DNA from: Desulfarculus baarsii DSM 2075
GTDB taxonomy: Bacteria > Desulfobacterota > Desulfarculia > Desulfarculales > Desulfarculaceae
NCBI RefSeq assembly: GCF_000143965.1
Contig: NC_014365.1
Coordinates: forward strand, 1,205,501-1,269,500
Direction of reading: 5' to 3'
DNA length: 64,000 nucleotides
The notes under the pieces are model-generated. The model saw only the letters and a list, made by a program, of their open reading frames with translations, had not been told where the DNA came from and searched no databases. Made by a program: the position numbers and the translations under genes. Positions 14,183 to 19,629 of this stretch are shown here, one piece after another; the stretch's first letter is position 1; every line of letters begins with the position of its first letter.

Positions 14183-15349
14183 TCAATGCTGGCCGGCCAA
14201 CGCGCCGCGCAGGGCCTCCAGCAGGCGGGGCAGGCAGCGTTTGGCGGTCACGGCCACGCGGAAGTGGCGGTCGCCGCAGCAGACAAAGCTGCTGGCGTCG
14301 CGGATGAGCACGCCCTGATAAAAGCAGTGCTCGGCCACCTGGGCCGCCGAGGGGCCGCCCTCGGGCAGGCGGCAGAGCAGGTAGTTGGCCTGGCTGGGCA
14401 AGACGTCCAGGCCAAGTTCGCCCAGGGCCTGGGCCTGTTGGGCGCGCAGGCGGTCGACGGTGGCGCGGGTCTTGTCGGCGAACTCGTCCTGATCCAGGCA
14501 GAACACGCCCGCCGCCTGGGCCAGGGTGTTGACCGACCACGGCTCGCCCAGGGGCACCATCTCAGCCAGGACGTCGCGGTCGGCCATGACGTAGCCCAGG
14601 CGCAGGCCGGCCAGGCAGTAGAATTTGGTCATCGAGCGCAAAACGATCAGGCGCGGGTATTCCAGGATGCGCGGCGGGGCCCAATCGCGCGAGTCGGCCG
14701 GGGCGAAGTCGATGAAGGCCTCGTCGATGATCAGCCAGGCGTTGCGCCGTTTGACCTGGCGATAGAGCGCCTCGATCACCTCCGGCGCGGTCAGCGCGCC
14801 CGAGGGCGTGGCCGGGTTGGTCAGCACCACCGCCGAGGGGTTGTGGGCCATGATTTTGTCAATGTGCCGGGTGGTGAGGGCGTAGCCTTCGCTTTCCTCT
14901 AGGTGATAATGATGAAAATGACGACCGGCGGCGGCCAGGGCCCGGGTGAACTCGCCGAAAACCGGGGCCAGCACGAGGATCTCGCGGAACTCCAGCGCGC
15001 GGGCCAACAGGCGGATCAGGGCCGTCGAGCCGTTGCCGGCCAGCACGTTGAAACGCCGCAGGCCGAACTTGGCGGCCAGGCGCTCGCGCAGTTCGAAGGC
15101 GCGGCGATCGGGGTAGTTGCACAGCCGATCCAGGGCCTCGATGATCACCTTTTGCAGGCCCGGCGGCGGTCCCAGGGGGTTGAGCGAGGCCGAAAGATCC
15201 AGCAGATCCTCCATGGGCCGGCCCAGGTGACGGGCTGCGCCCCAGATGTCGCCGCCGTGCAGGTGTTCTACGCCGAAAAGGCGCAGCAAGTCGTCTTGGT
15301 GTTGATCTTGGGTCACTGTCGAAAATCCCAATGCGGCCATGGGGGCCAT
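14183..15349 (-). CDS. Class I/II PLP aminotransferase, CobD/HisC-like
   Basis: A 388-residue fold-type I PLP enzyme. HLHGGDIW near residue 30 followed by DLSASLNPLGPP resembles CobD, the L-threonine-O-3-phosphate decarboxylase that makes the aminopropanol linker of cobalamin. RSMTKFYCLAGLRLGY contains the lysine expected to hold PLP. Histidinol-phosphate aminotransferase is the close alternative. No other cobalamin or histidine gene is nearby, so the assignment is by sequence only. The start is uncertain: the ATG at 15349 lacks a clear ribosome binding site, and an internal GTG 11 codons on is possible. Confidence 0.75.
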   Translation of the reverse strand: MAPMAALGFSTVTQDQHQDDLLRLFGVEHLHGGDIWGAARHLGRPMEDLLDLSASLNPLGPPPGLQKVIIEALDRLCNYPDRRAFELRERLAAKFGLRRFNVLAGNGSTALIRLLARALEFREILVLAPVFGEFTRALAAAGRHFHHYHLEESEGYALTTRHIDKIMAHNPSAVVLTNPATPSGALTAPEVIEALYRQVKRRNAWLIIDEAFIDFAPADSRDWAPPRILEYPRLIVLRSMTKFYCLAGLRLGYVMADRDVLAEMVPLGEPWSVNTLAQAAGVFCLDQDEFADKTRATVDRLRAQQAQALGELGLDVLPSQANYLLCRLPEGGPSAAQVAEHCFYQGVLIRDASSFVCCGDRHFRVAVTAKRCLPRLLEALRGALAGQH

Positions 15350-15421
15350 GGAGCGCCGGGCCGTGGAAGGGGCGCGCGGCGGGGCCGCGGGCCGGGGTTA
15401 ACGCGTGCGTGGGCTTAGGAA

Positions 15422-16921
15422 TTATGCCACGAACGGGCCATCGCCGCGAGGGCTTTTGTCCGAGGCGCGTTCGCCGCGATAGTCTTCCTTGCGCAGGCCC
15501 AGGCGGGTCATCTTCAGGTAGAGCGTCTTGGGGTTGACGCCGGCGGCCTTGGCCACCAGCCCGATGCGGCCGTTGTGCTTGGCCAGCAGGCCGGCCAGGT
15601 ATTGTCGCTGGCAATCATCGATGAACTGGCCCAGGTCGCGGCCGTCGAGCAGGGGGCCGATCTCGGCGGGCGGGGCGGCCACGGCCTCGGGCGCGGCGTC
15701 GGCTCTCGACGCTTCCGCCCGTTGCCCGGCGTGCTCCAGCTCCAGGCGGGCGATCTCGGACCCACGAGCCAGGATCACCGCCCGCTCCACGGCGTGCTCC
15801 AACTCGCGCACGTTGCCCGGCCAGTGGTGGGCCGCGATCTGCCGCGAGACTTGCGGCCCGAAGCGGCAGTCGGCCCGGCCGTATTTTTCGGCGAAACGAC
15901 GCAAAAAGGCCTCGGCCAGCGGCGCCTGGTCCAGGGGCCGATCTCGCAGGGGGGGGATGACCAGTTCGATGACGTGCAGGCGGTAGAACAAGTCCTCGCG
16001 GAAAACCCCGGAGGCCACGGCCTCGCGCAGGTTGCGGTTGGTGGCGGCGATGACCCGCACGTCGGCGCTTTGCTTTTTGGCCCCGCCCACCCGCTCGAAG
16101 GTGAACTCTTGCAAGAAACGCAGCAGCTTGGCCTGCATGTCCAGCGACATCTCGCCGACTTCGTCCAGAAATAGCGTGCCGCCGTCGGCCGCCTCCACCC
16201 GGCCGATCTTGCGGGCGATAGCGCCGGTGAACGAGCCCCGCTCGTGGCCGAACAGCTCGCTTTCGATCAGCGCCTCGGGGATGGCCGCGCAGTTGATCTC
16301 GACGTAGGGCCTTTCGCGACGAGGGCTGGCCTGATGGATGGCCCGGGCCAACAGGCTCTTGCCGGTGCCGGTCTCGCCGCCGATGAGTACGGTCACGTCG
16401 GTGGGGGCCACGGTGTCGGCCAGGGCGCAGAGCTGGCGCATCTTGGGGTCGAGGGCGGTCAGGCGGGCGCTTGCCGCGGGGCCTTGGTCGCGGGGCGGGC
16501 CGTTTTGGCGGCGCAGGCGGCGTTGCTCCAGGCAGCGGTTGAGGGCGTGGCGCACCTCGCCGATGGTGAAGGGCTTGCGCAGATAGTCGGCCACGCCCAG
16601 GCGGATGGCCCGGATGGTGTCCTCGATGTCGGAAAAGGCCGTCATAAGGATATATTGCGCGCCGGGGTGGCGGGCCTTCATCTGGCCGACGACGCTGAGG
16701 CCATCCATGTCTGGCATGCGCACGTCGGTGAGCACCACGTCGAAGGGCTTTTGCTCCATCAGGCGCAGGGCCTCGTCGGCCCGCGAGGCCACCTCCACCG
16801 CGAAGTGCTTGGCCAGCGAGTCGCGGATGACCTCCAAGGTCGACCACTCGTCGTCGAGCACCAGCACCGACGGCCGCCAGGCCTCCGTGGCGTCTTGGGG
16901 CGTGTTGGCGTATTGGCTCAA
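15422..16921 (-). CDS. Sigma-54-dependent response regulator, NtrC family
   Basis: I choose the TTG at 16921, preceded by GGGGGAAGG, giving 499 residues. Domains: receiver (about 17-130; acidic pair Asp23-Asp24, phospho-acceptor Asp66, Lys116); AAA+ domain with Walker A GETGTGKS (182-189) and the sigma-54 contact loop GSFTGA (229-234, a common variant of GAFTGA); and a C-terminal Fis-type helix-turn-helix with GLVAKAAGVNPKTLYLKMTR. It should activate sigma-54 promoters when phosphorylated. No histidine kinase is adjacent, so it is an orphan here. It is upstream of the CobD-like and crotonase genes. Confidence 0.9.
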   Translation of the reverse strand: MSQYANTPQDATEAWRPSVLVLDDEWSTLEVIRDSLAKHFAVEVASRADEALRLMEQKPFDVVLTDVRMPDMDGLSVVGQMKARHPGAQYILMTAFSDIEDTIRAIRLGVADYLRKPFTIGEVRHALNRCLEQRRLRRQNGPPRDQGPAASARLTALDPKMRQLCALADTVAPTDVTVLIGGETGTGKSLLARAIHQASPRRERPYVEINCAAIPEALIESELFGHERGSFTGAIARKIGRVEAADGGTLFLDEVGEMSLDMQAKLLRFLQEFTFERVGGAKKQSADVRVIAATNRNLREAVASGVFREDLFYRLHVIELVIPPLRDRPLDQAPLAEAFLRRFAEKYGRADCRFGPQVSRQIAAHHWPGNVRELEHAVERAVILARGSEIARLELEHAGQRAEASRADAAPEAVAAPPAEIGPLLDGRDLGQFIDDCQRQYLAGLLAKHNGRIGLVAKAAGVNPKTLYLKMTRLGLRKEDYRGERASDKSPRGDGPFVA

Positions 16922-17076
16922 GGCGCACCTTCCCCCGGGCGTGAATCGGTTGACCATGACCAGATTATGCAAGAAAACGCCTCGTTTGGCCAGGGCCGGC
17001 CGCGTGCGTTCCGCGATTTGCCCCTGGCCGTCGAGTTGTTATATTAATTGATAACGCACAGCAACGGGAGCAAGCC

Positions 17077-17436
17077 ATGCAATGCCAGAAATGCCACGCC
17101 CCCCTGGGCGCCGACGAGGCCTTTGAATTTGCCGGCCGCACCCTCTGCGAGGACTGCTACATGGACGCCCTCAGCCCCACCCGCGTCTGTGACCCCTGGG
17201 CCGTCTATCTGGGCAGCCGGCAGGTGGAGCAGATTCTGAGCCCGGCCCAAGAAAAGATCATGGGCCTGCTGCGCCAGCACAAGGCCCTGGCCCCCGAGGA
17301 TCTGCGCCGCCTCAGCGGGCTGACGGCCAAGGAATTGGAGCGCGAAATCGCTGCCCTGCGTCACATGGAGCTGCTGCGCGCCGCCCAGACCCCGGACGGC
17401 GGCAAGGTGCTAAAGCAATTCGGCGACCGCGATTGA
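17077..17436 (+). CDS. Hypothetical zinc-binding protein with a helical C-terminal domain
   Basis: A 119-residue protein. The first 30 residues form a four-cysteine zinc site (Cys3, Cys6, Cys24, Cys27: CQKC and CEDC) like half a LIM or treble-clef finger. Residues 50-119 look like a winged-helix domain (LAPEDLRRLSGLTAKELEREI, then a basic wing ending KVLKQF). The architecture suggests a small nucleic-acid-binding regulator, but no function is known to me. It is divergent from the sigma-54 regulator; the 155-bp gap is AT-rich near the start. Confidence 0.6.
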   Translation: MQCQKCHAPLGADEAFEFAGRTLCEDCYMDALSPTRVCDPWAVYLGSRQVEQILSPAQEKIMGLLRQHKALAPEDLRRLSGLTAKELEREIAALRHMELLRAAQTPDGGKVLKQFGDRD

Positions 17437-17508: not shown

Positions 17509-18318
17509 ATGTTCGGAACGCCAGACCCCTCGGGAGTGGGCCTGAAACGGCCCAGGATCAAAAGCGGACGCTTTCCCCAGCAATACGCCTTTCGCGGCTG
17601 CGTGCGGGCCACGATCAGCGGCGGTGAGTTCACTGGGCTCTACGCCTTTTACGGGGCCAAGGAGGCCGAGGTGCACGGCGGGGTGTTCCAAGAGAACCTC
17701 TGCTTTTACGCCAGCGAAAAGACGCGCGTGGAGGGCGGTGAGTTCAACGGCAAGAACGCCTTTTACGGCGCGCAGGAATTGCGCGTGGAGGGCGGGACGT
17801 TCAACGGTGATTGGGCCCTGTGCGAGGCCCAGGGCGCGTTGATCAGCGGCGGCGTGTTCAGCGGGGCCGGGGCGCTCAGCGAGGCCCGCGAGGCCAAGGT
17901 GGCCGACGGCCGCTTCGTGGGGGCCGATTTCGGCATCACCAGTCGCGACGTGATCGTGCGCGGCGGCGTGTTCGAAGGCCCCGGCTTTTTGCGCGGCAGC
18001 CGGGGCGCGCTGGTGCTGGGCGGCGACATCGCCGGCGAAGGGGCCCTGGAGCGGGCCGAGGACGCCCGCGTGTTTCTGGACGGCCAGTTGCGCCATGTGC
18101 GCAATCCCCACAGCGGGATCATCGTCGCCCGGCGCATCGGCGTCGTCGACTTCGACGGCCCGCCGCCCGACGACCTGATCATCGTCGCCGAGGAGGTCGG
18201 CGAAGGGGCTCGGTTCGCCAGGCTCTTGCCGGCCGGCCTCATCGGCCCGCCGCCCGGCGACGCCGCCAAGGCCCGCAAGCAGTTGCTGGAGTTGGCGGCC
18301 AGGGCCATGCAGGCCTAG
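17509..18318 (+). CDS. Protein with nine tandem 19-residue beta-helix-like repeats
   Basis: A 269-residue protein with no family I can name with confidence. Residues 26-196 fall into nine contiguous repeats of exactly 19 residues (starts 26, 45, 64, 83, 102, 121, 140, 159, 178) with consensus xAFxGAxxxxVxGGxFxGx. Regular hydrophobic positions and GG turns suggest a right-handed beta-helix or solenoid, as in bactofilin-like or pectate-lyase-like folds. DUF3737 has a similar style. Repeats 6-9 are more diverged. The C-terminal 73 residues are non-repetitive and end in a helix. No signal peptide, so probably cytoplasmic. A MinD-like ATPase follows 31 bp downstream. Confidence 0.7.
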   Translation: MFGTPDPSGVGLKRPRIKSGRFPQQYAFRGCVRATISGGEFTGLYAFYGAKEAEVHGGVFQENLCFYASEKTRVEGGEFNGKNAFYGAQELRVEGGTFNGDWALCEAQGALISGGVFSGAGALSEAREAKVADGRFVGADFGITSRDVIVRGGVFEGPGFLRGSRGALVLGGDIAGEGALERAEDARVFLDGQLRHVRNPHSGIIVARRIGVVDFDGPPPDDLIIVAEEVGEGARFARLLPAGLIGPPPGDAAKARKQLLELAARAMQA

Positions 18319-18349
18319 TCGTGGCCGCGGCCCACGGCGGCGTGGCCCC

Positions 18350-19384
18350 ATGAGCGCCCGGTTGTCGGCCAAAAACGCCGCCGTGACCCTGCCGGTGGGC
18401 GGCGGCAAGGGCGGCATCGGCAAAAGCGCCCTGGTGGCCAACCTTGGCCTGGCCCTGGCCCGCCTGGAGCGCCGCGTGCTGGCCGTCGACGCCGACTTGG
18501 GCGGCTCGGACCTCCACGCCGTGTTGGGCCTGGCCAACGACCGCCCCGGCCTGGGCGAGCTGTTGACCGCCAAGGGGCACGCCGTGGCCGATTTTGTCCG
18601 CCCGGCCCTGGAGCCGCGTTTTTTCTTTTTGCCCGGCGACGCCATGATCGTGGCCACGGCCAACCCCAGTTTCCAGAAAAAACGCAAGATCCTCCACGCC
18701 ATCAAGGCCTGGCCGGCCGATTTCACCCTGCTCGACCTGGGCGCGGGGGCCTCGATCACGGTGATGGATTTTTTCCTCACCAGCCCCCTGTCGCTGGTGG
18801 TGATGCTGCCCGAGCAGCCGGCGGTGATGAACGCCTTCAATTTTTTGAAAAACGCCGTGTTTCGCGCCCTGGACCGCATCTTTCGCGATAACGCCGGGGC
18901 CCGCGCGGCATTGCGGGATTTTCAGACGCGGGGCCGGGGGCCGGGGGCCATGAAGATCGACGAATTGGTGGCGGCCATCGAAAAGGCCGTGCCCGGCCAA
19001 GGCGAACGGGCCAGGCGGGCCGTGGGCCGCTGGCGGCCAAAGCTGGTGCTCAACCGCGCGCGCCGGGTCGACGACTTCGCCTTTGCCCGTCAACTGACCC
19101 GATGGGCGGCCGAGGATTTGGGGCTTGCCATCGAGGTGCTGGGCTTTTTGCCCGAGGACGAAGCCGTGCGCCAGGCCGCCGGCCAAGGCTTGCCGGCTCT
19201 CGATCTGGACCCCCGCGCGCCCTTTTGCCGGGCCGTGGCCTTGCTGGCCCAGCGGATCGGCCAATGGGCCGGCCGGGCCGATGAGTGGCGGGCCCACGGG
19301 GCCTTTGACGACAGCTTTCAGCGCGCGGCCACCGACTTCGCGGGCCTGTTCCCGCCGCCGGGCCGCGTCGAGAGGCGGCCATGA
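18350..19384 (+). CDS. MinD/ParA-family P-loop ATPase
   Basis: A 344-residue ATPase. A deviant Walker A, GGKGGIGKS (residues 18-26), carries the signature lysine of the MinD/ParA/FlhG family, and VDADLGGSDLH is the A'/switch region. The sequence FTLLDLGAGASITVMDFF gives the second switch. Such ATPases dimerise on ATP and position other cell components on membrane or nucleoid. Its length exceeds MinD (about 270), with an insertion around residues 185-235. No minC, minE or flagellar gene is near. It starts 31 bp after the repeat protein and overlaps the next small membrane gene (ATGA). Confidence 0.82.
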   Translation: MSARLSAKNAAVTLPVGGGKGGIGKSALVANLGLALARLERRVLAVDADLGGSDLHAVLGLANDRPGLGELLTAKGHAVADFVRPALEPRFFFLPGDAMIVATANPSFQKKRKILHAIKAWPADFTLLDLGAGASITVMDFFLTSPLSLVVMLPEQPAVMNAFNFLKNAVFRALDRIFRDNAGARAALRDFQTRGRGPGAMKIDELVAAIEKAVPGQGERARRAVGRWRPKLVLNRARRVDDFAFARQLTRWAAEDLGLAIEVLGFLPEDEAVRQAAGQGLPALDLDPRAPFCRAVALLAQRIGQWAGRADEWRAHGAFDDSFQRAATDFAGLFPPPGRVERRP

Positions 19385-19629
19385 GCCAGATCATCGACCC
19401 CTACGAGCGGGCCAAAAGTCAGCGCCGGCGGCGCAACACCGCCTTCTTGCGTCGCCACTGGCGGGTGGCCGCGCCGCTGATCGTCGTCGCGGCGGTGGCG
19501 CTTTTCGTGCTGCCGTGGTTGTTTCTGCCGATGATCGTGGCCTTGTGCTGGCAGGCCATCGCCTGCATGGGCGTCTATCTGCTGGCCCGCTCGCAGACCA
19601 CGGCCTTTCACCCCGAAGATGAAGATTAG
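19381..19629 (+). CDS. Small two-helix membrane protein
   Basis: An 82-residue protein with a strongly basic N-terminus (residues 15-28, RRRRN and FLRRHWR), two membrane helices (about 30-46 and 49-69) and a short acidic tail. The basic start predicts a cytoplasmic N-terminus, and both ends inside. It overlaps the MinD-like gene by four bases (ATGA), so it is made together with the ATPase and could be its membrane receptor or anchor; that is inference. No family recognised. Confidence 0.65.
   Translation: MSQIIDPYERAKSQRRRRNTAFLRRHWRVAAPLIVVAAVALFVLPWLFLPMIVALCWQAIACMGVYLLARSQTTAFHPEDED

Follow-up and report, generated by a model that had tools for sequence, protein, structure and literature searches.

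A/D ATPases dimerise on ATP, bind the nucleoid or the membrane, and are coupled to their cargos by very diverse partner proteins, which act through an N-terminus that is disordered and carries positive charge. For many members of the ParA/MinD superfamily, the orphans, neither partner nor cargo is known (PMC10241942). MinC binds MinD directly through a C-terminal β-helix (PMC6771821), and in Myxococcus the bactofilins are reported to have an organising role for ParABS (PMC5703909). The locus described here combines a MinD-like ATPase with a predicted cytoplasmic β-helix protein, and is compared below with each of these systems.

Organisation of the locus

The window analysed is a stretch of 64,000 nucleotides from Desulfarculus baarsii DSM 2075 (NC_014365.1, positions 1,205,501 to 1,269,500), and all window coordinates refer to it. 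The features of the locus are the following.

14183..15349, minus strand: class I/II aminotransferase (HisC/CobD-like), in the same module as the sigma-54 regulator
15422..16972, minus strand: NtrC-type sigma-54 response regulator (REC-AAA-Fis), the divergent neighbour
17018..17045, plus strand: sigma-70-like promoter match TTGCCC-16-TATATT with TG before the -10, 5' of the zinc-ribbon gene; a consensus match only
17077..17436, plus strand: 119-residue protein with a zinc ribbon (LIM-like) and a probable winged helix, the upstream gene
17509..18318, plus strand: 269-residue repeat protein, from the ORF call, its periodicity and a structure model
Parts of the repeat protein: basic N-terminal tail, residues 1–19; nine 19-residue coils, residues 20–190 (window 17566–18078); in the model, a three-strand cap, residues 186–233, and a C-terminal helix, residues 252–268
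18350..19384, plus strand: 344-residue MinD/ParA-type ATPase, from Pfam, motifs and synteny
19381..19629, plus strand: 82-residue predicted two-helix membrane protein, from the ORF call

The repeat gene is separated from the ATPase gene by 31 bp, and the ATPase and membrane-protein genes overlap by 4 bp (ATGA). The ORF coordinates and the Pfam assignments agree with a preliminary description of this DNA, which had placed a MinD/ParA ATPase directly after the repeat gene and a membrane protein overlapping it by four bases. The same description had noted that no minC, minE or flagellar genes were near, and a Pfam scan of the flanking genes (window 8.1–24.9 kb) likewise showed none. An ftsK gene lies 2.1 kb 3' of the ATPase gene.

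Periodicity and predicted fold of the repeat protein

The periodicity of the repeat protein was measured as the mean BLOSUM62 self-similarity of residues 25–200, which was 1.29 at a lag of 19 residues, 0.96 at a lag of 38 and 1.05 at a lag of 57. All other lags between 3 and 59 gave negative values, and the best value obtained from 2000 shuffles over all lags was 0.006. Nine ungapped units of 19 residues span residues 20–190, of which the ninth is degenerate; this is the exact nine-unit array that had been reported at residues 26–196, read in another phase. No tandem repeat is visible at the DNA level of the gene, and because the period is exact in the protein but invisible in the DNA the array is taken to be old. 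In the five homologues found (see below), every one of the 45 coils has glycine at position 1, and phenylalanine or leucine predominates at positions 3 and 9. None of the nine coils contains a gap, and no coil has been gained or lost among the five proteins.

A structure model, built with the window sequence and that of a single homologue, is a prediction rather than a solved structure; it gave a regular right-handed β-helix with a mean pLDDT of 90.6 and a pTM of 0.87, as expected from the β-solenoid proposed earlier. Residues 1–10 of the model are disordered (pLDDT 42), while the C-terminus is capped by three long strands and a helix. Comparison with Foldseek-ranked chains using VIA-align gave a Z score of 17.1 and an rmsd of 2.9 over 240 residues with a module of the mannuronan epimerase AlgE4, which tied with tailspikes and NosD; neither bactofilin nor MinC chains were among these rows, making the comparison neutral on both likenesses. 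At the level of the model these are fold matches only. Foldseek alone returned nothing at E ≤ 0.001 against the PDB and viral models, and PDB sequence searches with the β-helix protein gave no convincing relative.

On inspection the N-terminus of the protein is not signal-peptide-like, and the β-helix protein is therefore probably cytoplasmic. The disordered tip is followed in every homologue by a basic cluster at residues 10–33, and the most positively charged window of 21 residues starts at residue 10–13 in all five. The basic stretch is nevertheless a single inherited observation and not five independent ones.

The ATPase and its family

The ATPase contains CbiA/ParA Pfam domains, and its closest solved relatives are archaeal MinD and FleN/FlhG. 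It carries a deviant Walker A motif, GKGGIGKS (residues 19–26), together with the motifs VDADLGGSD and LLDLGAG. Residues K20, G21, G22, G24, D47, D49 and D129 are invariant in 11 aligned members, which gives the family the Walker signature of ParA/MinD proteins. The orthologue of genome G001 (L041:6274-7290) reads KGGTGRS: the Walker A lysine, retained by the other aligned family members, is replaced by arginine, which may reflect altered hydrolysis or an error in sequencing. Against the MinD model TIGR01968 the window ATPase scored 55.5 bits, below the equivalog cutoff of 212.9. It shares with FlhG/FleN the deviant Walker A motif and sequence similarity over residues ~9–167, but differs in having a family-specific C-terminal tail and in lying at no flagellar locus. 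In a tree of 59 ATPases the family was separated from five superfamily outgroups, presumed to be FlhG-like, with a support of 100/100. By these sequence comparisons the ATPase is a member of an unnamed MinD-like family, for which a profile search gave long matches of at least 200 bits in about 50 of 197 genomes of the phylum, approximately a quarter of the Desulfobacterota sampled.

A simple hydrophobic-moment scan revealed no amphipathic membrane-targeting candidate after the last helix of the ATPase. The structure model obtained for the ATPase from two sequences had a pLDDT of 38.6 and was not used. A role in a defence system was considered and found no support, the sole match being a weak local one of the ATPase P-loop. 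In several relatives (L035, L036, L037, L038, L039, L040 and L042) a TGTGCTA(A/G) stretch that is absent in the window genome lies shortly 5' of the ATPase start, and is possibly the ATPase's own promoter in these relatives.

Linkage of the β-helix gene to the ATPase

The β-helix gene was identified in the window genome, in 3 of the 19 other genomes of the family Desulfarculaceae and on one metagenome contig, giving five in all; no homologue outside the family turned up when 395 Desulfobacterota genomes were searched with a profile. The fifth locus (L048), recovered in a scan of genome contigs, is the 3.3 kb contig JAHJRN010000054.1, labelled Patescibacteria. Its proteins are 50–66% identical to those of the window, and the contig is most likely mis-binned Desulfarculaceae. 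In all five places the β-helix gene is immediately 5' of the ATPase gene and on the same strand, at a distance of 31–388 bp, and no β-helix homologue was detected in family genomes that do not have the ATPase. The ATPase itself is not dependent on the β-helix protein, since seven family genomes (G004, G005, G006, G009, G011, G013 and G016) keep the former without the latter.

Linkage of the membrane protein was examined in the same genomes. Homologues of the 82-residue protein occur in ten family genomes, about half of those available, and none is linked to the ATPase: the two genes are ~100 kb apart in G003 and on different contigs in G001, and the other eight genomes belong to a genus without the ATPase. 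As these homologues sit at unrelated places, the protein does not count as a third conserved component; it belongs to an orphan family in Desulfarculaceae and is a chance or species-specific neighbour of the ATPase. Members of this family (window 19381–19629; L089-L097) share the pattern WIDP..NEAWLQ.HWK...KFTTAFD within variable surroundings. The three-gene synteny by which the preliminary description had proposed to check its membrane-anchored positioning or scaffold system thus holds for the repeat gene and the ATPase but fails for the membrane protein, so that the three-part system is not supported, and a two-part pair of ATPase and β-helix protein is plausible.

An alternative account of the locus is the absence of any functional tie, with three genes sharing a transcript by chance and the β-helix gene inherited beside the ATPase in one family. 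Just five β-helix homologues are present in the data and all come from that family, and their adjacency to the ATPase is therefore possibly one of shared inheritance. The unlinked membrane protein, the small number of homologues and the seven genomes having the ATPase alone all agree with this account. It is, however, difficult to reconcile with the retention of the pair at 41–57% identity and between genera, and with the rearranged locus of G001, where the zinc-ribbon gene is on a separate contig and the β-helix gene is still beside the ATPase. On balance we regard it as rather unlikely, though it is the strongest of the competing explanations.

The divergent aminotransferase and regulator module

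In most family loci the ATPase is adjoined by the aminotransferase, NtrC-type regulator and zinc-ribbon genes, and in G002, G010 and G018 these three genes occur together without it. They constitute an independent divergent module conserved in Desulfarculaceae (window 14183–17436; L162, L163 and L164), and the pair of ATPase and β-helix genes is best seen as having been added to, or lost from, the locus of this module. The zinc-ribbon protein was rejected as a partner of the ATPase because genomes that have no ATPase also encode it, in most cases together with the response regulator. A second copy of the zinc-ribbon gene is present in the window genome (G000:C1:2807027-2807365).

The proximity of the sigma-54 regulator in most family loci, and the presence of FleN among the closest solved relatives of the ATPase, raise the possibility that the ATPase is a FleN/FlhG-like anti-activator acting on the divergent NtrC-type regulator, with the β-helix protein either modulating the ATPase or being incidental. 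This appears improbable. The persistence of the module without the ATPase in three genomes indicates that the regulator works without it, and the regulator carries a receiver domain of its own. Furthermore, G004 and G005 have the ATPase and no regulator in the region read, and other Desulfobacterota pair this ATPase family with other neighbours.

Comparison with bactofilins and MinC

The β-helix protein gave no match at E ≤ 1 to either the bactofilin (PF04519) or the MinC_C (PF03775) model. By the sequence tests run, the protein is neither a bactofilin nor a MinC. A Pfam similarity was seen to DUF3737 (PF12541), for which the window protein and its G001 homologue each scored 28.0 bits against a gathering score of 23.9, the other three homologues being under the cutoff. 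The match covers 85 of 275 columns in the window protein and 143 of 275 in the G001 protein, in different registers, and may reflect generic β-helix repeats. DUF3737 was not mentioned in the literature searched, and we know of no function for it.

The preliminary description had likened the repeat protein to polymerising bactofilins, and a bactofilin-like polymer placed in the cell by the ATPase would suit a glycine-rich, short-coil β-helix in the cytoplasm and has the precedent of the bactofilins and ParABS in Myxococcus, but is very unlikely given, besides the missing Pfam match, a profile comparison (hhalign) probability of 0.7% against seven bactofilins of the family, two true bactofilins encoded elsewhere in the window genome, and the predicted C-terminal cap and fixed coil number of the five homologues, which speak against simple end-to-end polymerisation.

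The likeness to MinC and MinD lies in the combination of a MinD-superfamily ATPase with a putative partner that is predicted to be a cytoplasmic right-handed β-helix. The proteins differ in that the β-helix protein has nine coils and a C-terminal cap where MinC has a short domain, and in that it has no MinC N-domain. The ATPase falls far under the MinD cutoff, and no MinC is encoded in the family genomes, MinC_C being absent from all 40 genomes searched, including that of D. baarsii. The pair may be described as loosely analogous to MinC and MinD.

Neighbours of the ATPase in other Desulfobacterota

The genes adjacent to the ATPase were compared at 54 loci. A protein with a J-domain and HTH_25 was encoded downstream at 18 loci (the label at L132 and L134 being assigned by sequence inspection), a PilZ or PilZ-like protein ending in an LWDxW-type motif upstream at nine and the β-helix protein at five, and none of these was present at the remaining 22. 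When these labels were mapped on the tree of 59 ATPases, the J-domain/HTH_25 label required 2 changes compared to a shuffled mean of 15.6, and the PilZ label 4 compared to 8.6. The β-helix label required 2 changes against a shuffled mean of 4.9, but the ATPases that bear it are closely related to one another. The kinds of neighbour track the phylogeny of the ATPase, and the pairing with the β-helix protein occurs in Desulfarculaceae only.

The proteins encoded 3' of the ATPase at L098, L100, L102, L106 and others consist of a J-domain-like N-terminus and a RodZ-type HTH_25, and at the 18 loci the J-domain-like part has no obvious HPD motif. The PilZ or PilZ-like proteins encoded just 5' of the ATPase at L107, L109, L110, L114, L117, L118, L120 and L121 carry a C-terminal LWDxW/LWDRY motif, which is a possible ATPase-docking motif; in L118, L120 and L121 a hydrophobic hairpin of two helices comes after it. 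A literature search pairing MinD-like ATPases with PilZ returned nothing on this ATPase family. In G003 (L036:7257-8273) and at L048 (2476-3297, identified by similarity) a PAS-GGDEF gene lies 7–8 bp 3' of the ATPase, in the place occupied by the membrane protein in the window.

Proposed role of the β-helix protein

We propose that the cytoplasmic β-helix protein is a lineage-specific partner of the adjacent MinD-like ATPase, an adaptor and probably a regulator of it, and consider the chances of this to be about even. The proposal builds on the repeat array, the predicted fold, the adjacency of the two genes at all five loci and the different recurrent neighbours of other clades of the ATPase family. 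A role as partner is favoured because of the nature of the N-termini by which partners engage A/D ATPases, the disordered tip of the β-helix protein and the basic stretch that follows it, and the precedent of MinC. The ATPase would form ATP-dependent dimers, to which the β-helix protein may bind via its conserved basic N-terminus, via the aromatic-rich face formed by repeat positions 7–11 of the first coils, or via both. Bound in this way it would link the ATPase dimer to a cargo, much as the β-helix domain of MinC binds MinD. Regulation of the ATPase and positioning by the pair would be further steps, the latter suggested by the known behaviour of the ATPase superfamily.

Our best guess, weakly held, is that the cargo is linked to c-di-GMP signalling, because PilZ proteins are the neighbours of a sister clade of the ATPase and a PAS-GGDEF gene comes directly 3' of the ATPase at two loci. 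In the most far-reaching form of the proposal the ATPase family would swap dedicated partners (PilZ, J-domain/HTH_25 and β-helix) from clade to clade, and the β-helix protein would be an independent counterpart of MinC that binds the ATPase and so places or gates a c-di-GMP-related cargo; we think this improbable as a whole.

The ATPase family described here has three exchangeable kinds of neighbour that track its phylogeny, one of which has the fold that MinD binds in MinC. If these neighbours are real partners they would form a natural series from which to learn how the same ATPase core is adapted to one cargo or another, and the small, well-folding β-helix protein would provide an easy test case.
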